The notes under the pieces were generated by a model. That model had not been told where the DNA came from. It did not search any database and saw nothing but the letters and a program-made list of their open reading frames with translations. Of a stretch of DNA of 64,000 nucleotides, positions 27,720-41,425 are shown piece by piece. The DNA comes from an uncultured bacterium (GTDB lineage: Bacteria; Acidobacteriota; Thermoanaerobaculia; Thermoanaerobaculales; Thermoanaerobaculaceae): positions 124,001 through 188,000 of the forward strand of contig CALEVZ010000013.1 in NCBI GenBank assembly GCA_937924755.1, read 5' to 3'. The stretch's first letter is position 1; each line of letters starts with the position of its first letter. The position numbers were made by a program, and so were the translations under genes.

Positions 27720-28646
27720 ATGAAAACGACAAGGGGCATCCTTCTCACAGTTTGCCTTTTGACGCTGGCGGGGTTGAGCCTGCCGGCGTTCGGCGCCACC
27801 CCCATCCGCGTGGTCGCCGCCATTCCCGACTTCGCCGCCATCGCCGAGGCGATCGGTGGGGGCGACGTCAACGCCGAGAGCATCATCGTCGGCAACCGCG
27901 ACGTGCACGCCGTGGAGCTGCTGCCCTCGTTCTTCATGAGGATCCGCAAGGCACAGGTCTACATCAAGGTCGGCATGGACCTGGATTTGTGGTCGCAGCA
28001 GCTGATCGACGGCTCGCGCAACGCTCGCCTGGTGGTGGTGGACGTCTCCAGCCGCATCACCCCGCTGGAGGTACCGACCTTTAAGGTGGATAGGTCCTAC
28101 GGCGACCTGCACCGCTTTGGTAACCCCCACTACTGGCTCGACCCCGCCGCCACCCGCCCCATGGTGGAGGCGATCCTCGCCGGCCTCCTTGCCGTGGCGC
28201 CGGACAAGGCCGGCGCGTTTCGCGCCAACGCCGAGGCATACATCGCCGCCTTTGAGGCGAAGAGCGCCCGCTGGCGCGAGCGCCTGGCTCCCCACAAAGG
28301 GGCGAGACTGGTGTCGTTCCACCGCTCGTGGCCCTATTTCGGGCGCCATTTCGAGCTCGAGTTCGTCGGCGAGCTGGAACCCAAACCCGGCGTCCCCCCC
28401 ACCCCCACCCACATCGCCGCCATGCAGGAGCTGCTGCGCTCCGGTACCGTCGCCGCCATCCTGATGGAGTCCTACTTCGACGACCGCGTGCCGCAGATGC
28501 TGGCCCGCACCACCGGCGTGCCGTTGGTCAAGGTGCCGGTGTTGGTGGGCGCCGAGCCCGCGGCGACGACGCGCGAAGCGATGTTCGAACTCATCGTCGA
28601 AGGATTGGCGAACGCTCTCCAGCGGGGGGGTAGCATGGCTCCATGA
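27720..28646 (+). CDS. Metal ABC transporter substrate-binding protein (ZnuA-like)
   Basis: The protein has 308 residues with a signal peptide (1-25). The three His ligands of the cluster A-I metal site are in place: H63 (NRDVHAVELLPS), H137 (GNPHYWLDP) and H201 (SFHRSWPYF). The His-rich loop of classical ZnuA is absent. It delivers Zn2+ (or Mn2+) to the inner-membrane permease. The stop overlaps the ATPase start (ATGA). Confidence 0.88.
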   Translation: MKTTRGILLTVCLLTLAGLSLPAFGATPIRVVAAIPDFAAIAEAIGGGDVNAESIIVGNRDVHAVELLPSFFMRIRKAQVYIKVGMDLDLWSQQLIDGSRNARLVVVDVSSRITPLEVPTFKVDRSYGDLHRFGNPHYWLDPAATRPMVEAILAGLLAVAPDKAGAFRANAEAYIAAFEAKSARWRERLAPHKGARLVSFHRSWPYFGRHFELEFVGELEPKPGVPPTPTHIAAMQELLRSGTVAAILMESYFDDRVPQMLARTTGVPLVKVPVLVGAEPAATTREAMFELIVEGLANALQRGGSMAP

Positions 28647-29401
28647 ACCACGAGCAGCCGCTCTTTGTCTTCGATGACGTCGCTCTGGGTTACGGGAGGG
28701 TGCCGGTCCTCCGGCACCTCTCCTTTCACATCTGCGCCGGCGAATTCCTCGGCATCGTCGGCCCCAACGGCGCCGGTAAAACCACCGTCTTACGTGCCAT
28801 CCTGGGTCTCCTCACACCCCAGGCGGGACGCATGTTGAGCAGCGGCAGGCCGGTGATCGGCTACGTGCCGCAGCGCGAGACCATCGACACCATTATGCCG
28901 GTGACGGCCAGAGAGGTGGCGTTGATGGGGCGAGCCCCGCGCCTGGGGCCGTTCGGGCGTCCCGGCCGCGCCGACTTCGAGGCTGCCGAGCGGGCGATGG
29001 CCGCCACCGGCGTCGTCGATCTCGCCCATCACCTGCTGCGCGACCTGTCCGGCGGCCAGCAACAAAGGGTTTTGCTGGCGCGTGCCCTGGCCGCCGAGCC
29101 GGAGCTGCTGGTGCTGGATGAGCCCGTCAACGGCATGGATCTCGCCGGCGAGCACGCCATCGTCGAGCTCCTGGTTCGCCTCAACCGCGAGCGGGGCTTG
29201 ACGGTGATCCTGGTCACCCATTTCTTGCCCATGGTCCTCAACGCCGCCACCACCGTCCTGCTGCTGCAGGGCGACCGCAGCCTCTACGGCGGCGCCGAGG
29301 AGATACTGCGGGACGAGACCCTGAGCAAACTGTACGGCCTGCCGGTAAAGGTCATGACGGCGGGAAACCGAAAAACCCTGCTGGTCGGGCCCCTCTCATG
29401 A
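28643..29401 (+). CDS. Metal ABC transporter ATP-binding protein (ZnuC-like)
   Basis: The protein has 252 residues. Walker A is GPNGAGKTT (about residues 42-50), the Q loop is YVPQRE, the ABC signature is LSGGQQQR, Walker B is LLVLDEP, and the switch His lies in VTHFL. It powers the permease encoded next and overlaps both neighbours by 4 bp. Confidence 0.92.
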   Translation: MNHEQPLFVFDDVALGYGRVPVLRHLSFHICAGEFLGIVGPNGAGKTTVLRAILGLLTPQAGRMLSSGRPVIGYVPQRETIDTIMPVTAREVALMGRAPRLGPFGRPGRADFEAAERAMAATGVVDLAHHLLRDLSGGQQQRVLLARALAAEPELLVLDEPVNGMDLAGEHAIVELLVRLNRERGLTVILVTHFLPMVLNAATTVLLLQGDRSLYGGAEEILRDETLSKLYGLPVKVMTAGNRKTLLVGPLS

Positions 29402-30201
29402 AGGCTCTGTGGGAGCTGGAGTTCATGCGGCTGGCGGCGGTGGCCGGCGTGGCGGCGGCGGTGGCGCTGTCCACGTTGGGGGTGTACGTGGTCCTCAAAC
29501 GGGTGGTGTTCGTGGGCCTGGCGCTCGCCAACCTGGCCACCCTGGGCGCCGCCGTGGCCCTGGCCGTGGGTCTGCCCGTGGAAGCCACCGCCATCGTCGC
29601 CACCCTGGGAGGAGCTGCCGCCCTCGCCCTCGCCGCCACTCCCCGCGTGATTCCCAGCGAGGCGATCATCGGCTGGGGATTCGCCGCCGCTTCGGGCCTC
29701 ACCGTGCTGGTGCTGGCCCGCTCCACCACCGCCGACGCCGAGGCCATGCGCCTGCTTTTCGGCAACGTCCTGGCCATTTCCGCCGGCGAGGCGGCGATGA
29801 TGGCGGTAGTCGCCAGCGCCGTGCTGCTGATCCACGGGCTCTTCGCCCGGCGGTTCGTGCTGGTGGTCTTTGACCCCCTCGCGGCCCGGGCGGCCGGCAT
29901 CCACACCGCCCTGTGGACGCTCATCCTCTACCTGACCGTCGGCGGCGCCGCCGCCGCCGCAGTGCACGAAACCGGCGCCTTGCTCGCTTTCGCCCTGCTG
30001 GTGCTGCCGGCCATGGCAGCCCTGCTGATCAGCGGCCGCCTGATGACCGCTTTCCTCATCAGCGCCGCCATCGCCGTGACCTGCGTGGTCGCTGGCCTGG
30101 GGCTGTCGTTCCACTGGGACCTGCCCACCGGTCCGCTCACCGTCGCCCTGTTGGCGGCCGCCGTGCCGCTGGCGGCCCTGGCGCGGCGCGCCCTCCGGTG
30201 A
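29398..30201 (+). CDS. Metal ABC transporter permease (ZnuB-like)
   Basis: The protein has 267 residues with eight or so membrane helices. It carries the ABC-3 family pattern: VYVVLKRVVFVGLALANLATLGAAVAL near the N terminus, and the helix LAARAAGIHTALW before the second half. It forms the inner-membrane channel of the ZnuA/ZnuC-like system. The stop is followed by an AT-rich gap before the SulP gene, so the operon probably ends here. Confidence 0.9.
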   Translation: MKALWELEFMRLAAVAGVAAAVALSTLGVYVVLKRVVFVGLALANLATLGAAVALAVGLPVEATAIVATLGGAAALALAATPRVIPSEAIIGWGFAAASGLTVLVLARSTTADAEAMRLLFGNVLAISAGEAAMMAVVASAVLLIHGLFARRFVLVVFDPLAARAAGIHTALWTLILYLTVGGAAAAAVHETGALLAFALLVLPAMAALLISGRLMTAFLISAAIAVTCVVAGLGLSFHWDLPTGPLTVALLAAAVPLAALARRALR

Positions 30202-30270: not shown

Positions 30271-32430
30271 ATGAGGGGCAGCAACTCGGACCGGGGAAGC
30301 ACCTTACCGATGGCTCTCACGCGGGCGGGAACCCTCTTTCTGCGGCCGGCGGCGGTGCTGCAGGGGGTACGGCGGAGGAGACTGCGCCCTGATGTACTGG
30401 CGGGACTCACGGTGGCCATCGTGGCCATCCCCCAGTCCATGGCCTACGCCGCCATCGCCGGTCTGCCCCCCGCCACCGGTCTCTATGCCGCAGCCGTGGC
30501 CTCGGTGGCTGGGGCCCTGTGGGGTTCCTCTAGGCACCTGTCCACCGGCCCCACCAACGCCATCTCGCTGCTGGTGCTCTCGGTCCTCTCCCCCCTGGCG
30601 GCGGTGGGCAGCGCGCAGTTCGTCGCCGCCGCGGGAGCCCTGGCGGTCCTGGTGGGCGTCGTGTGCCTGGCGTTTGCGGTGCTGCGGCTGGGAATGCTCA
30701 TCAACTTCGCCTCCCGCGCCGTCCTGCTCGGCTTTACCGCCGGTGCCGGGGTGCTGATCGCCATCGGCCAGCTCCGATCTTTGCTGGGGATCGATCTTCC
30801 CCGCAGCCCCTACCTATACCGGACGCTGGTGGGCGTGGCGGAGCGCTGGCAGGAGATCAACCCCGCCAGCGTGGCCGTGGGGCTGGGGACCCTGGCGGTG
30901 GTGATTACCCTCCAGCGGCTGGCCTCGCGCACCCCGACGGCGCTGCTGGGCCTGCTCACCGCCGGCGTGGTGGTGGCGGTGGTGGGCGCCGAGCCCCTGC
31001 GCCTCACCGTGGTGGGAGAAATTCCCCGCGCCCTCCCCGCCCTCACCCCCCTTGACTGGACCTGGCTCTTCGACAACCACGTCCTGGCCACCATCGCCAG
31101 CGGCGCGGTGGCGGTGGCAGCGCTGGGGGTGGTGGAGGCGGTGTCCATCTCCCGCGAGATCGCCCGGCAAAGCGGCGACCGCATCGACGTGAACCAGGAG
31201 CTGGTGGGCCAGGGGATGGCCAACATGGCAGCGGGACTGCTGGGAGGGTATCCCGTCTCCGGATCCTTCACCCGCAGCGCCGTGAACTACCAGGCGGGGG
31301 CGCGCACCCACCTGGCGGGGGTGCTGACCGGAACCTTCGTGCTGGCGGGCATCCTGCTCTTCGGTCCCCTGGCGGCGTACCTCCCCCACGCCGCGCTGGC
31401 CGGGCTGATTCTCCTCATCGCCTGGAACATGATCGACTGGCACAGCATCCGCCGGGTGATGCGCGCCTCCCGTGCCGAGACTCTCATCATGGCCACCACC
31501 TTTGCCGCCACCTTGGTCCTCTCCCTGGACGTGGCCATCCTCCTAGGGATCATCCTTTCCCTGGCGTTGTACATCTACCAGTCCAGCATGCCCACCGTCC
31601 ACCCGGTGGTGCCCGACGAAACCTTCCGGCACTTCGTCGAGCGCGAGGGACAGCCCCAGTGCCCCCAGCTCGCCGTGGTCAACATCCGCGGCGCCCTTTA
31701 CTTCGGCGCAGCCGCCTACGTCGAGGACGAGCTGCTCGCCAACATGGAGCGCAACCCTGGACAGCACTATCTCTTGCTGCGCCTGCACGGGGTGAGCCAC
31801 TGCGACCTCTCCGGCCTCGATGCCTTGGAGGGGATCGTCCGCCTGTACCGCGACAACGGCGGCGACGTGTTCATCGTCAAGGCTCGACCACCGGTGCGCG
31901 AGCTCATGCGCCTGGTGGGTTTCGAGGCCTTCCTGGGGGAGGACCACTTCCTCGAGCAGGATTACGCTGTCGACTACCTGTTCGAGCGGGTCTTGGATCC
32001 CGCCGTATGCTGCTACGAGTGCGAGCACCGGGTTTTCGCCGAGTGTCAGCCCCTGCATAAGCACCACTACGACGCCCGTCTGCCCAGTTTGGGTGCCTCC
32101 GTGAGCCATCCCGACCGGCATCTGACCGTCTTGGAGGTGAGGGACCTCCTCGCCAACCAGGAAAGACGACCGCTCATCGTCGATGTGCGGGAACCCGAGG
32201 AGTTCAGTACGGGCCGCATCCCCGGAGCCATGCTGCTGCCCCTGCGCAGCCTGCCGGAGCGGATGCCCGAACTTCCCCGCGACCGACGCATCCTCCTGGT
32301 CTGCCGCTCCGGCCGGCGCTCCGCCCGTGCCCTGCACTGGCTGCTGGAGGAGGGGTTTCCCGACGTCTACAACCTGAAAGGGGGCATTCTCGCCTGGAAG
32401 GCGGCCGGCCGGCCGGTGGAGGTGGAGTGA
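30271..32430 (+). CDS. SulP anion transporter fused to STAS and rhodanese domains
   Basis: The protein has 719 residues: a SulP membrane domain with about 12-14 helices (about 30-440, including IPQSMAYAAIAGLPPATGLYAA), a STAS domain (about 465-570), a Cys/His segment CCYECEHRVFAECQPLHKHH (about 580-600), and a C-terminal rhodanese domain (about 617-715) with active-site loop CRSGRRS (Cys near 677). SulP proteins carry sulfate, bicarbonate or other anions. The catalytic Cys of the rhodanese is intact, so sulfur transfer is possible. A TATGAT element lies 9 nt upstream of the ATG. Confidence 0.9.
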   Translation: MRGSNSDRGSTLPMALTRAGTLFLRPAAVLQGVRRRRLRPDVLAGLTVAIVAIPQSMAYAAIAGLPPATGLYAAAVASVAGALWGSSRHLSTGPTNAISLLVLSVLSPLAAVGSAQFVAAAGALAVLVGVVCLAFAVLRLGMLINFASRAVLLGFTAGAGVLIAIGQLRSLLGIDLPRSPYLYRTLVGVAERWQEINPASVAVGLGTLAVVITLQRLASRTPTALLGLLTAGVVVAVVGAEPLRLTVVGEIPRALPALTPLDWTWLFDNHVLATIASGAVAVAALGVVEAVSISREIARQSGDRIDVNQELVGQGMANMAAGLLGGYPVSGSFTRSAVNYQAGARTHLAGVLTGTFVLAGILLFGPLAAYLPHAALAGLILLIAWNMIDWHSIRRVMRASRAETLIMATTFAATLVLSLDVAILLGIILSLALYIYQSSMPTVHPVVPDETFRHFVEREGQPQCPQLAVVNIRGALYFGAAAYVEDELLANMERNPGQHYLLLRLHGVSHCDLSGLDALEGIVRLYRDNGGDVFIVKARPPVRELMRLVGFEAFLGEDHFLEQDYAVDYLFERVLDPAVCCYECEHRVFAECQPLHKHHYDARLPSLGASVSHPDRHLTVLEVRDLLANQERRPLIVDVREPEEFSTGRIPGAMLLPLRSLPERMPELPRDRRILLVCRSGRRSARALHWLLEEGFPDVYNLKGGILAWKAAGRPVEVE

Positions 32431-33377: not shown

Positions 33378-35018
33378 CTAGAAGCGGGCCGTGAACGAGG
33401 CGGAGATCATGCTGGCACCGTCGTAGGTGGGGAAGCCCAGCACCGGCGGCTGCCCGCCGGAGAGCTTCTTGGGCGCCCCCAGGTGCCACCCCGAGCCCGA
33501 GTAGTTGTAGTCGTAGTTGATGTACCCCAACCGGAAGAGGAAATTCTTGCGAATCTGGTGGAGCAGGTACACCTCGATGACGTCACCCCGGGTGGCGGTC
33601 TTGGGGGCAATGATGTCGTCCTGGGCGGGGGTGAAGTTGAACCAGTATTCGGAGCCGTGGTTGAACTCGGCGCCGATCTGGGTGGCGCCATTGGGCAAGT
33701 TGTAGCGCACCCCCAGGTAGTACATGGTGCCGGAGTGGGACTCGGGGACGGTGAAGGGATCGGCGAACAAGCCGCCGAAGGGGGTGGTGACGTTGTCGGG
33801 GTGGCTTTTGATGTAGTTGAAGTTGACGAACCAGTCCAGGGGCCCGTCGGTGCGCATGAGGAGGGCGCCGGCGATGTCCATGTCCCCCAGGTTGGCCGAG
33901 GGCGAAAAGCGCATCACCAGCGGCGCGCCGATGGCCTCGCCGGTCACCGGGTTGTTGGGCAACACGATGAGGCCGTTGAAGCCATCGGTGAGGTTGAAGG
34001 CCCGGGCCACGGTCACCTGGGCGAGGGTCGTGCCGTCATCCCAGATATCCCAGTTGATACCGGCAAACTGGGCGTCCTTCAGGCGATCGGCGGGCTGGCG
34101 TAGCACTTGGCCGTTGCCGAAGCCGCTCTCGTACCCCAGCCCCCAGCACAGCCGCGCCGTGGAGTGCTCCGACAGGTGATACCCGAGCGTCACGCCATCG
34201 AACTGGAAGTCGATCAGCGAGCCCATCGGGGAGCCGGAGCGCATCTCCCCCTGGCGCAGGTGCATGGGAGGCCCCCCCGAGGACGGCCGGCGGCCCGCCG
34301 ACAGATAGAGACCGGTGCCACCGATGTTGGTCCAGTCGAAGTAGGCGCGCTCCACCCGCAGCTGATCGCCGTTGGGCACTCCCACCGTGTTGCCATCGAT
34401 GTTGAAGCTGTTGGACTGGCCGTTGAACACTTGGACGCCGGTGGAGTCCCCGAACACCTTGTACATGGACAGCCGACCGGAAAACTTGACGTTTTCGGCC
34501 ACTGCGGCGTTGATGGACAGGCGCAGGCGGTTGGTGTAGAGCGCCGAGTTGTCGGCATCGTAGCCACGGACGAAGACGTGAGGCAGCAGGGAGGCCATAA
34601 GCGCCTGCTGCATGGCGGGGGGAAAGGCCCCCATCGCCTGCTGCAACTTGGCGTACGTTAGACTCCCGGTGAAGTACTGGTAGGAGCCGTAGTTGGCCGC
34701 GATGAACTGCTGCACCTGCTGGGGGGAGGCGGGCAGCTGCCCGGTGGCGCCGTAGTAGAAGAGGGTGTCCACGATCCCCTTCTGCAGCCGCATGCCGTCG
34801 AAGTGGTCGGGGATGGACGCCGAGATCGAGTGGGCCTCGAAGCGGAAGTCGCCCGAGAAGTTGAGGCGGTCCTTGGCCGCCTTGACCTCCACCTTGGCCA
34901 AGCGCTCCTCCAGCTCATCCAGGCGTGCCTCGAGGTCCTCATCCCCCGCCGGTTCCTTCTGGGCGCTCGCGAACGTTGTCACGAGCACGAGTGCTGGAAC
35001 GATCATCAACCATCGCAT
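33378..35018 (-). CDS. DUF3373-family outer-membrane barrel
   Basis: The protein has 546 residues: a signal peptide (1-19), a short coiled coil (about 27-48, LEARLDELEERLAKVEVKAA), then a long beta-barrel with aromatic-rich strands ending in SFTARF. The pattern (coiled coil, RLNFSGDFRFEAH, LYTNRLRLSINAAV, ERAYFDW) is that of DUF3373, a porin-like family of anaerobic proteobacteria and relatives. GGAGAGA precedes the ATG. It is the last gene of the respiratory operon, so it may admit the substrate (inference). Confidence 0.85.
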   Translation of the reverse strand: MRWLMIVPALVLVTTFASAQKEPAGDEDLEARLDELEERLAKVEVKAAKDRLNFSGDFRFEAHSISASIPDHFDGMRLQKGIVDTLFYYGATGQLPASPQQVQQFIAANYGSYQYFTGSLTYAKLQQAMGAFPPAMQQALMASLLPHVFVRGYDADNSALYTNRLRLSINAAVAENVKFSGRLSMYKVFGDSTGVQVFNGQSNSFNIDGNTVGVPNGDQLRVERAYFDWTNIGGTGLYLSAGRRPSSGGPPMHLRQGEMRSGSPMGSLIDFQFDGVTLGYHLSEHSTARLCWGLGYESGFGNGQVLRQPADRLKDAQFAGINWDIWDDGTTLAQVTVARAFNLTDGFNGLIVLPNNPVTGEAIGAPLVMRFSPSANLGDMDIAGALLMRTDGPLDWFVNFNYIKSHPDNVTTPFGGLFADPFTVPESHSGTMYYLGVRYNLPNGATQIGAEFNHGSEYWFNFTPAQDDIIAPKTATRGDVIEVYLLHQIRKNFLFRLGYINYDYNYSGSGWHLGAPKKLSGGQPPVLGFPTYDGASMISASFTARF

Positions 35019-35066: not shown

Positions 35067-36029
35067 TCACTGAAAAGCGCTCACCTGACCGGCAAAGACG
35101 AACACGTAGCGCAGCATGAGGCCACCGAAGAGCACCAGCACCGCCGCCGCCGCCGCCATCCCCCGCCCCGGGTGCAGCTCCTGCCGTGCCAGAAGTACCG
35201 GGCGCAACTCCCACAGCTCCAGCCCCAGCGGCAGGAGCAGTCCGAGGGTGAAAAACCACCCCCAGAAGGCCCATGTGAACGGCCCGCCGAGGATCAAGCG
35301 CAGCGCCTCCTGCACCGCCAGGGGGGACAGGGCGCCGTGGATGATGTACGGCAGTACCACAAACAATTCCAACAAGATCCACACGATATCCAGGCTGAAC
35401 AAAAGCCTCGCCTCGCCCGCTTCCAGGCCCGCCCGGCGCAGCGAGAGCACCAGGATGAGCAGGGCGCAGCCGGTGGACAGCGCCGAGAAGAGAAACATCT
35501 GCGCCACCAGGTTGGTGTTCCAGAACGGCCGCGCCTGCACCGCCCCCAGCAGCACGCCGGTGTAAATCCCCACGCCGACGGCGACGGGAAAGCCGACCAT
35601 GGCCAGCGGCCGGCGCAGGCCCTCCCGCCAGGAGCGGTCGATCCAGCGCAGGAACCGCAGCCGCCGCGGCAGTTTGGCCAGGGCGGCGCCCAGTCGGTCT
35701 GCCGGCAACCACGCCCAGAAGGCGAGCAGCGTAATACCAGTGAAAAGCAGCAGCAGCCACGCACCGATGGACATCGGGCTGCGCCACTCGAAGGTGATAA
35801 ACAGCTTGTAAAAGCGGTACCAGTGGCCGAGGTCGAAGACCAGTAGCGCCGACCCCAGCGACACCGGCCAGGGAGCCAGCAGCGCCCCGGCCCGCGCCAG
35901 CCGTGGGAAGGCGGTGCCCTCACCCCGCTGCAGGTAGGTGGCCAGGGCGGAGACGAAAAACAAGCCGGCGGACAGCCCCCCCAGGAACAGGTAGAGCACG
36001 ATCAACCAGCCCCAACGCGGTTCAGGCAT
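35067..36029 (-). CDS. NrfD/PsrC-type membrane subunit
   Basis: The protein has 320 residues with eight or nine membrane helices. The N-terminal helix (LIVLYLFLGGLSAGLFFVSAL) and the overall pattern match NrfD/PsrC quinone-reactive subunits. It carries quinol electrons to the periplasmic 4Fe-4S protein and molybdenum enzyme encoded just upstream. The ATG at 36029 (after GGGGG) is used; a GTG at 36041 is the alternative. Confidence 0.9.
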   Translation of the reverse strand: MPEPRWGWLIVLYLFLGGLSAGLFFVSALATYLQRGEGTAFPRLARAGALLAPWPVSLGSALLVFDLGHWYRFYKLFITFEWRSPMSIGAWLLLLFTGITLLAFWAWLPADRLGAALAKLPRRLRFLRWIDRSWREGLRRPLAMVGFPVAVGVGIYTGVLLGAVQARPFWNTNLVAQMFLFSALSTGCALLILVLSLRRAGLEAGEARLLFSLDIVWILLELFVVLPYIIHGALSPLAVQEALRLILGGPFTWAFWGWFFTLGLLLPLGLELWELRPVLLARQELHPGRGMAAAAAVLVLFGGLMLRYVFVFAGQVSAFQ

Positions 36030-36057
36030 GCGCACCCCCACAAAAATGCGAACATGG

Positions 36058-36621
36058 CTATACCAGGTACCAACCTTGCGGGTCGTTGCCGGTTTGCGGC
36101 TTCTTCACGTAAGCGCGGCGGCTGTCCAGTAGGCGCCGCAGCTCGGAGGCGGGGTCATCGAGGTTGCCGAAGGTGCGCACCCGGCTGGGACAGGTCTCCA
36201 CACAGGCCGGCTCCCGCCCGGCGTCGACCCGGTGGGCACACATGGTGCACTTGTCCACCACCCTGGTTTCCGGGTTGAAGAACCGGGCATCGTAGGGGCA
36301 GGCGATGATGCAGTAGCCACAGCCGATGCAGTCCTCGGTCCTGACCAGCACCAGGCCGTCCTCGCGCTGGTACGAGGCGCCGGTGGGGCATACCCGCACG
36401 CACGACGGGCTCCCGCAGTGGTGACACTGCTCGGGCTCGAAGCTGGCCCGCAGGTGGGGGTAGTGCCCGCCCCGCTCCTCGTTGATACGGTTGCGGAACT
36501 TGCCCATGGGCACGCCGTTCTCGGCCTTGCAGGCGACCACGCAGGCCTTGCAGTTGATGCACTTGCGGGTATCGAAGGCGAGTGCCCAACGGGTGCTATT
36601 CAGGCCCAGGCGCTTACGCAT
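36058..36621 (-). CDS. Four-cluster 4Fe-4S electron-transfer subunit (PsrB/NrfC type)
   Basis: The protein has 187 residues with four Cys motifs: C21-C24-C27-C31 (CINCKACVVAC), CHHCGSPSCVRVC, CIGCGYCIIAC and CTMCAHR...CVETC. This is the standard ferredoxin subunit of CISM-type oxidoreductases, bridging the NrfD subunit and the molybdopterin subunit. It has no signal peptide of its own, so it would be co-exported with the Tat partner. The start overlaps the molybdopterin gene by 8 bp. Confidence 0.93.
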   Translation of the reverse strand: MRKRLGLNSTRWALAFDTRKCINCKACVVACKAENGVPMGKFRNRINEERGGHYPHLRASFEPEQCHHCGSPSCVRVCPTGASYQREDGLVLVRTEDCIGCGYCIIACPYDARFFNPETRVVDKCTMCAHRVDAGREPACVETCPSRVRTFGNLDDPASELRRLLDSRRAYVKKPQTGNDPQGWYLV

Positions 36622-38824
36622 GGGAGGCCTCCTCGACGACCTTGCGCACGGTGACGAAGGTTTCGTGAAAGGCGGCGTTGCCGGACACCCGGTCCCAGGC
36701 GGTGACCAGTACGTCGGCGTCACAGGCGCCGTTGCCGTGGGCGCGGCGCAGCCAGGGTGAGATCTTCCCGAACCCGTGCAGCATGAACACGCAGTCGGGG
36801 CGGATTTCCGGCGTCACCCGGGCCGGCAGGCGCACATGCCCCACCTCGCTGGCCAATTCCACCAGGTCCCCGGAGGCAATTCCCAGCCGGCCGGCGGGCT
36901 CGGGGTGGATCCACAGGTCGTTGGTGGGGGTCTGTTCGATAAGCCAGGGATTGTTGGTGGTCGCAGCGTGGGTGTGGGTGGCCTTGCGCCCCAACACCAT
37001 GCGGAACGCCCCCTGCGGCGGCTGGGTTGGGGGGTGGTACACCGGCAGAGGGTCGTGGCCGGCTTCGGCGAGGCGCGCGGAGACCAGCTCGACCTTGCCC
37101 GAGCGGGTCAGAAAGCGATATCCCGGCGCCAGGGTCTTGCCGTAAAAGGGTGCCCCCTCCAGCGCGAAGACACCGTGCTTCTTTAAGTACTCCAGTGGAT
37201 TTTCTACCGGCAACTCGGCCGCCTGTTCGGCGATCCATTCCTCGATGGTGTAGTCGAAATAATCCCCCAATCCCAAGCGCTTGGCCAGTCCCTGGATAAT
37301 CTCCAAGTTGGGCCGCGTGTCATGCACCGGCGTCACCACCTGCTGGCGCAGCACCACCACCGGCCAGATGCCGGGCAGCATGTGCAGCGGGTCGGTGCGC
37401 TCCAGGTACATGGACTCCGGCAGTACCACGTCGGCGAACCACGCGGTGTCGCTCATCTGGGTGTCGATGACGGCGACGAAGTCCATCGCCTCGAGCATGC
37501 GCCGGGTCTTGCCGCGGTCCGGCAGGGCGTTCATGGGGTCCTGCTTGTAGACCATCCACCCCTTCACCGGGTACGGTGTTCCGCTCAGGACGTTGTCCCG
37601 CGCCTGCAGGAACGCCCCGTCCCCCCGCGCCGCCAGGGGGAAGCGGCTGTCGATCTCGTCCACCCGGGGCGCCGTGGGGTCGTCCCAAGGGAGCACCAGG
37701 AGTTCTCCCAGGGGGATACGGCTATTGGGCACCACCCCCCCTTCCCGATCCCAGCTGCCGACGATGGCGTTCAGGATCGCCTGCCCACGCCGCATCTGAA
37801 AGTCGTTGACGTACCAAGAAGAACGGCGGCCGGCGTAATACACAGCGCGGGGGGCGACGTCGGCGAACTCGCGGGCGATGCGGGTGATGTCCCGCGCCGG
37901 GATCTCCGTCTCCCCCTCCGCCCACTGCGGGGTGCAGCTCTCCACGTGGGCAGCCAGCTCCTCGAACCCGAGGCAACGGGTGGTGACGAATTCTTTGTCG
38001 TATCGCTGCTCCCTAATGATGACGTGAAGCATGGCGAGGATGAAGGCCAGATCAGTACCGGGCCGGATGGGGTACCACTCGTCGGCCTTGGCGGCCGTCA
38101 CCGTGAAGCGCGGGTCGAGGTACACCAGCTTGGCCTTGCGGTTCATGGTCCCATCGATGAGGTCCATGGTGTCGGGAGTGATGATGGACTCGAAGCGGTT
38201 GGCCCCCGACATGATGACGTAGCGGGCGTTGAGCAGGTCGAACGACGGCACCGTGCCGAACGTCATGGAGTAGGCCAGATTCACCGACGCTAGGCAGAGG
38301 GTGGGATGGCGCAGCAGGTTGGGAGAGCCGAAGGCCAGGGCGAAGTTCTTGAAGAACTCCTCCTGGAACCCCTCGGTGGAGGAAAACATGACGCCCTCCG
38401 GACCGTACTTTTCCCGGATCTCCTGCAGCCGCTGCGCGGTGAAATCCAGCGCCTCGTCCCAGGAGACCTCCCGCCACTTTCCCTCCCCCCGTGCCCCGGC
38501 GCGGATCAAGGGTCCTTTCACCCGGTCAGGGTCGTACAGCGCCTGGATGGCCGCGTTGCCCCGGGCGCACAGCATCCCCCGGGACTTGGGCGAGGCCGGG
38601 TTGGGGTTCAGCTTCGTCACCCGCCCGTTCTCCACCACCGCCAGCACCGCGCACTTGTTGGGGCACACCTCGCAGGCGGTAGCCACCTCGCGCACCTCGG
38701 CGGCGACCGCGGCCCGCCGACGGCGGGCCAGCGGCGCGCATCCCAGCTGTGGGCCCAGCGCCGCCGAGGCCGCGACCGCTGCGGCGCCCGCCATCACCTG
38801 CCGCCGCGTCACCCCCCTACGCAT
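36614..38824 (-). CDS. Tat-exported molybdopterin oxidoreductase (PsrA/PhsA-like)
   Basis: The protein has 736 residues. A Tat signal, RRQVMAG (R7-R8), is followed by a 4Fe-4S site C51-x2-C54-x3-C58-x27-C86. C177 (HPTLCLAS) is placed where PsrA-type enzymes have the Mo-ligating Cys. The molybdopterin-binding domains extend to the C-terminal dinucleotide-binding domain (from about 610). With PsrB- and NrfD-type partners it should be a periplasm-facing quinol-linked reductase (or oxidase) of polysulfide, thiosulfate, tetrathionate or an arsenic/selenium oxyanion; the sequence alone does not decide. The ATG at 38824 overlaps the upstream stop. Confidence 0.93.
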   Translation of the reverse strand: MRRGVTRRQVMAGAAAVAASAALGPQLGCAPLARRRRAAVAAEVREVATACEVCPNKCAVLAVVENGRVTKLNPNPASPKSRGMLCARGNAAIQALYDPDRVKGPLIRAGARGEGKWREVSWDEALDFTAQRLQEIREKYGPEGVMFSSTEGFQEEFFKNFALAFGSPNLLRHPTLCLASVNLAYSMTFGTVPSFDLLNARYVIMSGANRFESIITPDTMDLIDGTMNRKAKLVYLDPRFTVTAAKADEWYPIRPGTDLAFILAMLHVIIREQRYDKEFVTTRCLGFEELAAHVESCTPQWAEGETEIPARDITRIAREFADVAPRAVYYAGRRSSWYVNDFQMRRGQAILNAIVGSWDREGGVVPNSRIPLGELLVLPWDDPTAPRVDEIDSRFPLAARGDGAFLQARDNVLSGTPYPVKGWMVYKQDPMNALPDRGKTRRMLEAMDFVAVIDTQMSDTAWFADVVLPESMYLERTDPLHMLPGIWPVVVLRQQVVTPVHDTRPNLEIIQGLAKRLGLGDYFDYTIEEWIAEQAAELPVENPLEYLKKHGVFALEGAPFYGKTLAPGYRFLTRSGKVELVSARLAEAGHDPLPVYHPPTQPPQGAFRMVLGRKATHTHAATTNNPWLIEQTPTNDLWIHPEPAGRLGIASGDLVELASEVGHVRLPARVTPEIRPDCVFMLHGFGKISPWLRRAHGNGACDADVLVTAWDRVSGNAAFHETFVTVRKVVEEASHA

Positions 38825-39782
38825 CGCCGCCCCCCCTCGCCCCGCGGCTACCCGCCTGGCCTGCCGCCACCAGCAATCGCTCCACCAGATGATCGAAGAG
38901 CGCGTGATACTCACGGGCGCCGGGGATCTCGGCGATGGACGAGGGGATAACCACCACCCGCGCCCTGGTACGCGTACGGAACGTCTCGGCGTACTCTTCC
39001 GGGGTGTGCGGGTCCACCACCACGATGGGCACCTGCTGGCCGTTGATCTGCTCCGCCAGCAGCGGCGGCTTGACCAGCACTCCCGGTTCGCTGCGGCAGC
39101 TCATGAAGGCGGGGCCCAAACGCGCCAGGTTGGCCCAGCCGCACTGGGTGATGAAGATCTTGGTGCCAGCGAGGTGGGCCAGTCGGGCTCGCCACCCCTG
39201 AATTCGGCCGGCCAGGTCGGCGGCGAAGGCCTCGGCGTTAGCCTGGAAGGTCGCCACCCGCCCCGGCCGCAGCTGCGCCAGACCGGCGGCGATGGTGCGC
39301 GCGATCACCGCCCCGTTTTCGGGGTTCAACCAGAAGTACGGATCCCCATGCATGAACTGGATAGGTACGAACCCTTCACAGCTAGAGGTGGGCACCTTGA
39401 CCCGCACCGTGCCCTGGGATGCGTCGATCCACAGCGGTTGCCGCAGACGCTCCCGCTGCTCCGGCGTAAGGTTCTCGACGGCATGGAAGATCGCTGCGGA
39501 CTCGTGGAACAGCCCACTCCACACCACCGCCTCGGCCGACACCAGGCCGGCCAGCGCACCCCCCTCCACTTCCAGCCCCGGGCGCAAGACGCAGCCGGTG
39601 AACAACACCGTGATCGCCACATCCCTGCCACCCACGCGCTGGGCGATGGCGGCCAGATCGGCGTTCACCACCGCCACCGGGACGCGCCCTTCCCCCGGAG
39701 GCGCCGCTGCCAGGGCGGCCGCTGCGCCCACTGCGCCCAACCCCAGCCACGCCAGTACGGCACGTATCCGACGCTGTCTCAC
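38817..39782 (-). CDS. ZnuA-like periplasmic protein with Cys in place of metal His
   Basis: The protein has 321 residues with a signal peptide (about 1-27). The fold follows cluster A-I SBPs: VAVVNADLAAIAQRVGG, the long helix, GDPYFWLNP, and VVVDPHTPEEYAETF. At the metal positions, C64 (FTGCVLRPG) stands where ZnuA has its first His, Y149 where NPHxWLDP has His, and C214 (ITQCGWANL) where FHDAYGYF has His. C135, C229 and H145 are nearby. No ATPase or permease is adjacent; instead the gene overlaps the molybdoenzyme gene by 8 bp. It may bind a thiophilic metal or sulfur species for the respiratory complex (inference). Confidence 0.75.
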   Translation of the reverse strand: MRQRRIRAVLAWLGLGAVGAAAALAAAPPGEGRVPVAVVNADLAAIAQRVGGRDVAITVLFTGCVLRPGLEVEGGALAGLVSAEAVVWSGLFHESAAIFHAVENLTPEQRERLRQPLWIDASQGTVRVKVPTSSCEGFVPIQFMHGDPYFWLNPENGAVIARTIAAGLAQLRPGRVATFQANAEAFAADLAGRIQGWRARLAHLAGTKIFITQCGWANLARLGPAFMSCRSEPGVLVKPPLLAEQINGQQVPIVVVDPHTPEEYAETFRTRTRARVVVIPSSIAEIPGAREYHALFDHLVERLLVAAGQAGSRGARGGGDA

Positions 39783-39828: not shown

Positions 39829-40152
39829 CTACCCGCAGGTTTCAGGCTGCGGGGAATCCGCCGCGTGGTCCACCAGGAACTTCTGCACGTCCTGGAGTTG
39901 CTCCGCCGGCAGCACGTCGGTGAGCTTTTGCGTGCCCTTGTTGTGCACTCCCTTGGCGAAGTAGCGCTTCCACTGCTCCTGGGTCTTACTCAAGGGGGTG
40001 ATCTCGCCCCCCTCGGCTCCCTTGACGTGGCACGACTTGCAGCTCTTCTTGAAGTGGAACCGTCCCTTGTTGGCGCTCCCCTGGGCCAGGGCAAAGCCGC
40101 TGGCGAAGGTCAGCGCCACCACCGCCGCCGCCGCTTTCATCGTCCCTCTCAT
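39829..40152 (-). CDS. Small periplasmic c-type cytochrome
   Basis: The protein has 107 residues. A signal peptide (about 1-24) leads into a monoheme domain with CKSCH near residues 38-42 and a following helix (QEQWKRYFAKGVHNKG). It is the first gene of the respiratory operon; AAGGAGG lies 5 nt before the ATG. It probably exchanges electrons with the molybdenum enzyme or another periplasmic partner. A long leader separates it from the TTGACA promoter. Confidence 0.85.
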   Translation of the reverse strand: MRGTMKAAAAVVALTFASGFALAQGSANKGRFHFKKSCKSCHVKGAEGGEITPLSKTQEQWKRYFAKGVHNKGTQKLTDVLPAEQLQDVQKFLVDHAADSPQPETCG

Positions 40153-40396: not shown

Positions 40397-41425
40397 TCAA
40401 ACCAGGTTGGTAAGGCCAGCCTCCCGGGCCCAGGCGAGGGCCTGGCGCCACTCCTCGGAGGTGAGCCGGCGGGACAGCTCTGGGATATTCACGGCGCGGT
40501 ACTCGGGGCGGTACTGGCTCATGATGTTCACCGCCGTCTGCGGCCCCAGCTCCGCCGCCACCCAGCGCACGAAGCGGTCGGTGCCCGCCAGGTTGTGGGG
40601 CAGCACCAGATGGCGGATCAGAAGGCCCCGCCGCGCCACTCCCCGCTCGTCCACCTCCAGCACCCCCACCTGCCGGTGCATCTCCCGGATGACTGCCGCC
40701 GCCACCTCGGGGTAATCCCGCGCCCCCGCCGAGTACCGCGCGGCCACCTCCCCGTCCTGGTACTTGAAGTCGGGCAGGTAGATATCCACGATGCCGTCGA
40801 GCAGGGCGATGACCTCGGGGTTGTCGTACCCGCCGGTGTTGTACACCAGCGGCAGGCGCAGCCCGCGGGGGATGGCCGCACGCACCCCCTTGATGATGTG
40901 AGGGACCACGTGGCTGGGAGTGACGAAGTTGATGTTGTGGCACCCCCACTGTTGCAGCTCCAGCATCATCTCCGCCAGTCTTTCGATCGCCAGGAAGCTG
41001 CCGTCGCCGCGGTGGTTGATCTCCCAGTTCTGGCAGTAGCAGCACAGCAAGTTGCAGTTGGAGAAAAAGATCGTCCCTGACCCCCGACGCCCCACCAGGG
41101 GCGGCTCCTCGCCGAAATGAGGGGCGGCGGAGTGGACCTTCAACTGTGCCGTCGAGCCGCATACCCCCGTCTCGCCCTTCAACCGGTTGGCCCCGCACCG
41201 CCGGGGACACAGCTCACAGGCGGCCAGCTTTTCCCATAACCGCTCGGCCCGCGCCGCCAGCTCCCCCGAGCGCTCCAGCGCCAGATACCCCGGCTCCCAG
41301 TCCGTCCCCTCCCCCCGCACGGGAGCGGCCATCCGGTGGGCGCGGCTGCAGGCCAGGGGCGCCACCGCCAGCAGCGCTGCCGCCTCCGCCGACAGTTTCA
41401 TGAACGACCGCCGCGAGGAACCCAT
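40397..41425 (-). CDS. Radical SAM protein with Tat-like signal (PflA/PflX-type)
   Basis: The protein has 342 residues. The radical SAM motif is C-x3-C-x2-C (CNLLCCYC), following FFS, and is preceded by a Cys pair motif CELCPRRCGANRLKG and GVCG as in the PflX/AmmeMemoRadiSam-type group (COG1313/1180). The downstream LVYNTGGYDNPEV and DIYLPDFKY are typical. The N terminus reads SSRRSFMKLSAEAAALLAVAPLAC, a twin-arginine signal that also contains a possible lipobox. GGGAGGTGG precedes the ATG at 41425. The substrate is unknown, and export of a radical SAM enzyme is unusual. Confidence 0.88.
   Translation of the reverse strand: MGSSRRSFMKLSAEAAALLAVAPLACSRAHRMAAPVRGEGTDWEPGYLALERSGELAARAERLWEKLAACELCPRRCGANRLKGETGVCGSTAQLKVHSAAPHFGEEPPLVGRRGSGTIFFSNCNLLCCYCQNWEINHRGDGSFLAIERLAEMMLELQQWGCHNINFVTPSHVVPHIIKGVRAAIPRGLRLPLVYNTGGYDNPEVIALLDGIVDIYLPDFKYQDGEVAARYSAGARDYPEVAAAVIREMHRQVGVLEVDERGVARRGLLIRHLVLPHNLAGTDRFVRWVAAELGPQTAVNIMSQYRPEYRAVNIPELSRRLTSEEWRQALAWAREAGLTNLV

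Follow-up and report, generated by a model that had tools for sequence, protein, structure and literature searches.

A predicted periplasmic protein of the ZnuA fold, encoded inside a molybdoenzyme operon, had lost all canonical metal ligands of its family and carried four invariant cysteines instead. Its gene had no ABC transporter partners. The protein may assist the anaerobic respiration of sulfur compounds as an accessory that traps a thiol-reactive ligand for the neighbouring reductase, a reading to which we assign a probability of about 0.42. It is a variant of a known fold family and not a new system.

The gene occupied positions 38817-39782 on the (-) strand of the window, i.e. the whole 64,000-nucleotide stretch that was analysed, and encoded 321 residues from a GTG start. 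The original prediction had placed this reading frame in the ZnuA family, and both profile and fold bore it out: the product scored 70.6 bits against Pfam PF01297 (ZnuA; cutoff 29 bits), and a Foldseek search with its predicted model returned YfeA and ZnuA as the top matches (E about 1e-13, TM 0.63-0.70). The folding input consisted of the window protein, its paralogue and some relatives only. In the model of the window protein (pLDDT 74.6), residues 173-204 formed the long inter-lobe helix, and the cleft loops 65-71 and 131-145 were of low confidence. The Sec-type signal peptide comprised the n-region RQRRIR, a hydrophobic stretch and an AxA-type end without a lipobox, and judged from this sequence the protein is probably exported to the periplasm by the Sec pathway.

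The mature protein contained exactly four cysteines. C64 (codon 39591-39593, this and the following codons on the (-) strand) and C135 (39378-39380) were located in loops of the N-lobe, the latter ahead of the GDP[FY]F motif, while C214 (39141-39143) and C229 (39096-39098) belonged to the QCGW and C[RK] motifs of the C-lobe. The alignment check proposed earlier found all four invariant in 16 of the 16 full-length Cys-type rows, window included, with no row in which a cysteine was replaced; the partial row L082 stopped before the C214 and C229 columns. None of the four was present in the 26 His-type relatives. Residues H63, H137 and H201 were kept in every His-type row (26/26) and in no Cys-type row (0/16), where these columns held K/P/S/R, F/Y and Q, respectively. 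A profile-profile alignment (E 2.6e-40), with which the 42-row alignment agreed, set H63, H137 and H201 against P68, Y149 and Q213 of the window protein, so that C64 stood four residues before the H63 column and C214 one residue after the H201 column. The original prediction had put C64, Y149 and C214 at the histidine positions, which was right for Y149 in the H137 column but not for the two cysteines. The acidic ligand column (D280 of PsaA) was an invariant serine in the Cys-type proteins, according to a PDB profile alignment. Judged from these alignments, the ligands have been lost more completely than first described, the columns of H63, H137, H201 and D280 all being changed. The residue H145, also counted near the site, was not conserved, as H, E, A, S or P occupied this position among the Cys-type rows. 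C135 and C229 had been listed as merely nearby; they were indeed present, but proved as invariant as C64 and C214 and hence belong to one four-cysteine set.

C64 and C135 preceded the inter-lobe helix and C214 and C229 came after it. Because the helix lies between C135 and C214, homology would place two cysteines on each lobe, as with the ligands of ZnuA, and all four around the old metal cleft. A dN/dS of about 0.1-0.2 in four close Cys-type pairs showed that the genes were under purifying selection. The Cys-type rows had a mean identity of 56% and 59 invariant columns out of 265, and by that count alone four invariant cysteines are not extreme. The strength of the signal came from the mature window protein having no cysteine other than these and from the 26 His-type relatives having none of the four. 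The proteins of loci L038, L069 and L073, which formed a separate sub-clade of the Cys-type tree, contained three or four extra cysteines in the mature region, in the motifs [CW]CEG and PGC[C], and this sub-clade possibly binds another ligand.

Orthologues were sought in 60 relatives and then, with a three-row profile, in 396 genomes of the phylum. Cys-type matches scored 239-555 bits, the lowest value being that of a fragment, and every other match scored at most 145 bits. Besides the window, 16 further Cys-type orthologues were read, the full-length ones being about 37-52% identical to the window protein. In the tree, rooted at the midpoint and containing long branches for the window row and L016, the Cys-type (n=16) and His-type (n=26) proteins were split by a branch with 100/100 support. 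The window protein and that of G002 formed a sub-clade nested among the Cys-type proteins associated with the octaheme tetrathionate-reductase-type cytochrome (OTR). A contig search with the window protein alone returned only distant His-type relatives, a plasmid collection gave no match, and no Cys-type match at 1e-40 was obtained in 399 genomes from the phylum of G425 (a Gammaproteobacteria MAG), an empty answer that is uninformative by itself. No account of a protein of this kind turned up in the literature searches.

The operon position claimed for the gene was confirmed. All genes of the operon were on the (-) strand, in the order of a small monohaem cytochrome c (CKSCH; 39829-40152), the four-cysteine binding protein, a PsrA/PhsA-type molybdopterin subunit with a Tat signal (36614-38824; match to PDB 2vpw, E 3e-144), a PsrB-type 4Fe-4S subunit (36058-36621), an NrfD/PsrC-type membrane subunit (35067-36041) and a DUF3373 outer-membrane porin-like protein (33378-35018; 358.7 bits). 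The binding-protein and psrA genes shared 8 nt (38817-38824), the overlap noted earlier. The set of molybdenum, FeS and NrfD subunits was thus present, and a cysteine of the window molybdenum subunit aligned with a cysteine of Thermus PsrA (2vpw) that we take to be the Mo ligand. On the same strand, positions 40397-41425 encoded a radical SAM protein with a CxxxCxxC motif, distantly AmmeMemoRadiSam-like, whose N-terminus resembled a lipobox-containing Tat signal (SSRRSFMK...LACS), which is unusual for a SAM-dependent enzyme. The normal paralogue was also as described: a canonical His-type ZnuA, used here for comparison only, was encoded at 27720-28646 (+) and followed 3' by genes for an ABC ATPase (28643-29401) and a permease (29398-30201). 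Downstream of these zinc uptake genes was a SulP-type anion transporter (30310-32430, (+)) with a C-terminal domain that appeared rhodanese-like by eye.

Genes in the fetched loci were taken from a codon-bias caller, which places starts and small genes approximately. No ABC ATPase or permease gene adjoined the Cys-type gene in the window or in any other of the 17 loci read, some of which were cut by contig ends, in agreement with the claim that the protein lacks transporter partners; a permease was present in the His-type loci L083 and L084. The PsrABC operon context was found in the window and in G002, a member of another genus of the same family, in which the order from cytochrome c through binding protein, PsrA, PsrB and NrfD to porin was repeated. 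Identity to the window was 71-77% for PsrABC and the porin and 55% for the binding protein. The contig of G008, a third relative, broke off at PsrA. A second context consisted of genes for a PAS/sigma-54 activator, the binding protein, a TrmO-like protein, in some cases a NifX-like protein, an octaheme cytochrome of the tetrathionate-reductase family (TIGR04315, 557 bits; PDB 1sp3, E 5e-116) and a cytochrome b561, and in eight genomes the Cys-type gene occurred next to OTR, along with a thiosulfate-reductase-like cytochrome b. In a variant of this context (L070, L072 and L076), the order was NifX-like, binding protein, multihaem cytochrome and b561, with a PsrABC-TorD operon divergent from it in L070 and L072. 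G076 and G159 carried the Cys-type gene in a multihaem-cytochrome operon beside a divergent PsrABC. The cytochrome in the position of OTR in L072 (5632-7710) and L070 had 692 residues and seven CxxCH motifs, matched the octaheme family weakly (33 bits) and had no PDB match. TrmO_N-like genes, and often genes with a Nitro_FeMo-Co domain, adjoined those of the four-cysteine protein and multihaem cytochrome in L072, L074, L075 and L077-L081. In the third context (L038, L069 and L073), the neighbouring genes of the three loci included between them CGGC, OYE-like, cysteine-synthase-like and Nitro_FeMo-Co genes, together with a nearby ArsP_2 exporter in L038 and a DsrK-like gene in L069.

Among the 14 Cys-type genomes of the 396-genome sample, 11 had a close PsrA and eight an OTR over the cutoff (Fisher p 1e-10 and 3e-6, respectively, values that ignore kinship, most genomes coming from two families). 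The reverse did not hold, since of the 34 genomes in the sample that had a close PsrA, 23 had no Cys-type protein and 11 had one. The majority of the PsrABC operons examined were free of the binding protein and read cytochrome c, DUF3373 porin, PsrA, PsrB, NrfD and sometimes TorD, and OTR operons of the same kind read cytochrome c, porin, OTR and b561. The binding protein therefore appeared to be an addition to these operons, placed inside the Psr operon in one family, and an accessory rather than a core subunit. The suggestion that it is a constant subunit of the molybdoenzyme was rejected on these counts, while the more general proposal that a binding-protein fold was recruited from ABC transport to stand beside respiratory reductases was supported by the conserved cysteines and by neighbourhoods free of ATPase and permease genes in the loci read. 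A cytochrome c orthologue headed the operon in G002, in most PsrABC operons and in most OTR operons free of the binding protein. The module of small cytochrome c and DUF3373 porin preceded two unrelated reductases of the phylum, PsrABC and the octaheme OTR (window genes at 33378-35018 and 39829-40152; loci L095, L096, L097, L099, L105, L123 and L124), and is an outer-membrane protein and cytochrome that these sulfur-compound reductases share.

In the proposed mechanism, the cleft, without its former metal ligands and ringed by two cysteines from each lobe (C64 and C135; C214 and C229), would close on a thiol-reactive ligand such as polysulfide, tetrathionate or another sulfane compound related to them, and trap it between the lobes. 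The trapped ligand would then be presented or handed to the neighbour, PsrABC in the window and the octaheme tetrathionate-reductase-type cytochrome in the relatives. The ligand class is suggested by gene context, which points to sulfur compounds more than to arsenic or copper because OTR, PsrABC and rhodanese or YeeE genes belong to or adjoin the related operons. Of the OTR loci free of the binding protein, L097 encoded a secreted protein of three rhodanese domains and L103 both rhodanese and Sulf_transp (YeeE/YedE) proteins, neighbours that suggest sulfane or thiosulfate chemistry. The narrower proposal, that a fold for metal import was turned into a thiol cleft which captures tetrathionate or polysulfide and feeds both PsrABC and OTR as a soluble delivery protein outside the rhodanese kind, is rather unlikely as it stands. 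Several observations speak against the main reading. Four invariant cysteines exceed what a simple persulfide carrier would require and suit a metal site or a pair of disulfides equally well, PsrABC and OTR mostly operate without the protein, and the sub-clade of L038, L069 and L073 is encoded near CGGC and cysteine-synthase-like genes, joined in L038 by ArsP_2.

Alternatively, the cysteines might form a 2+2 tetrathiolate between the lobes that binds Zn, Cu, Cd, Hg or As(III), for buffering, detoxification or delivery in the periplasm. This layout copies that of ZnuA, most relatives in the family bind metals, and the L038 gene was close to an exporter of the ArsP_2/arsenic-efflux type and to CGGC and Nitro_FeMo-Co genes; the exporter occurred at that one locus only, however, and the commonest contexts were OTR and PsrABC instead of metal resistance, which leaves soft-metal binding possible but doubtful. 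A preassembled Fe-S cluster was dropped as a candidate, as most signal peptides had no clear Tat motif and looked Sec-type. It is improbable that the metal site is simply dead and the protein a scaffold or thiol-redox protein with disulfides C64-C135 and C214-C229. One invariant pair per lobe and the loss of all canonical ligands would suit such disulfides, but structural disulfides need not adjoin the old ligand columns, and the strong conservation of the cleft motifs GC[VIL]L, GDP[FY]F and QCGW suggests a working cleft.

A sensor role, in which the respiratory substrate would be signalled to a regulator, has a precedent in AioX and ArrX, binding proteins encoded beside molybdoenzyme genes that signal and do not transport (PMC5908839), and a PAS/sigma-54 activator gene preceded the OTR-type operons. 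No membrane sensor kinase adjoined the gene in any locus read, however, the sigma-54 activators looked cytoplasmic and the window operon had no regulator gene, so a sensory role is very improbable. A scan for sigma-54 promoters upstream of the operons found sites only in two near-identical Cys-type loci and in one locus free of the binding protein. An ordinary Zn/Mn uptake receptor served by a remote ABC transporter would explain the Pfam match, but with all four canonical ligand columns changed and a second, His-type receptor encoded in the same genome together with a transporter for it, the chance of this is close to negligible. Ordinary zinc uptake was discarded as contradicted by the ligand loss.

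Proteins of this subfamily score over the ZnuA threshold of Pfam, and annotation would label them zinc-transporter components, though both the zinc site and the transporter have been lost. The four-cysteine signature, LFxGC[VILN]L[RQ]...C[EFSGT]G...G[DN]P[FY]F...QCGW...C[RK], corrects such naming and provides a defined target. If a sulfur species is bound, the protein would be a dedicated periplasmic capture protein for polysulfide or tetrathionate respiration, with a bearing on how sparingly available substrates reach their enzymes. If a soft metal is bound, a family described through His/Asp/Glu sites would gain a thiolate variant.

The ZnuA/TroA/PsaA binding proteins of cluster A-I (PF01297) are homologous to the four-cysteine protein by sequence and have the fold, length and long inter-lobe helix in common with it. 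Unlike them, it has none of the canonical ligands, four new invariant cysteines and no ABC ATPase or permease partners. OTR (TIGR04315, PDB 1sp3) and PsrABC (PDB 2vpw) are its neighbouring enzymes, and most of the sampled genomes with either are without it, its presence being the variation. The Sud protein of Wolinella, a rhodanese, is a polysulfide-sulfur transferase. Proposed as a periplasmic sulfur carrier feeding Psr, Sud is comparable to the four-cysteine protein by proposed role only. The arsenic sensors AioX, ArxX and ArrX are likewise transporter-free periplasmic binding proteins beside a respiratory molybdoenzyme (PMC5908839). They are of a PhnD-like family and their genes flank a sensor kinase and a response regulator, whereas the four-cysteine protein is of the ZnuA family and neither regulator gene stood beside the window operon or the orthologous loci.
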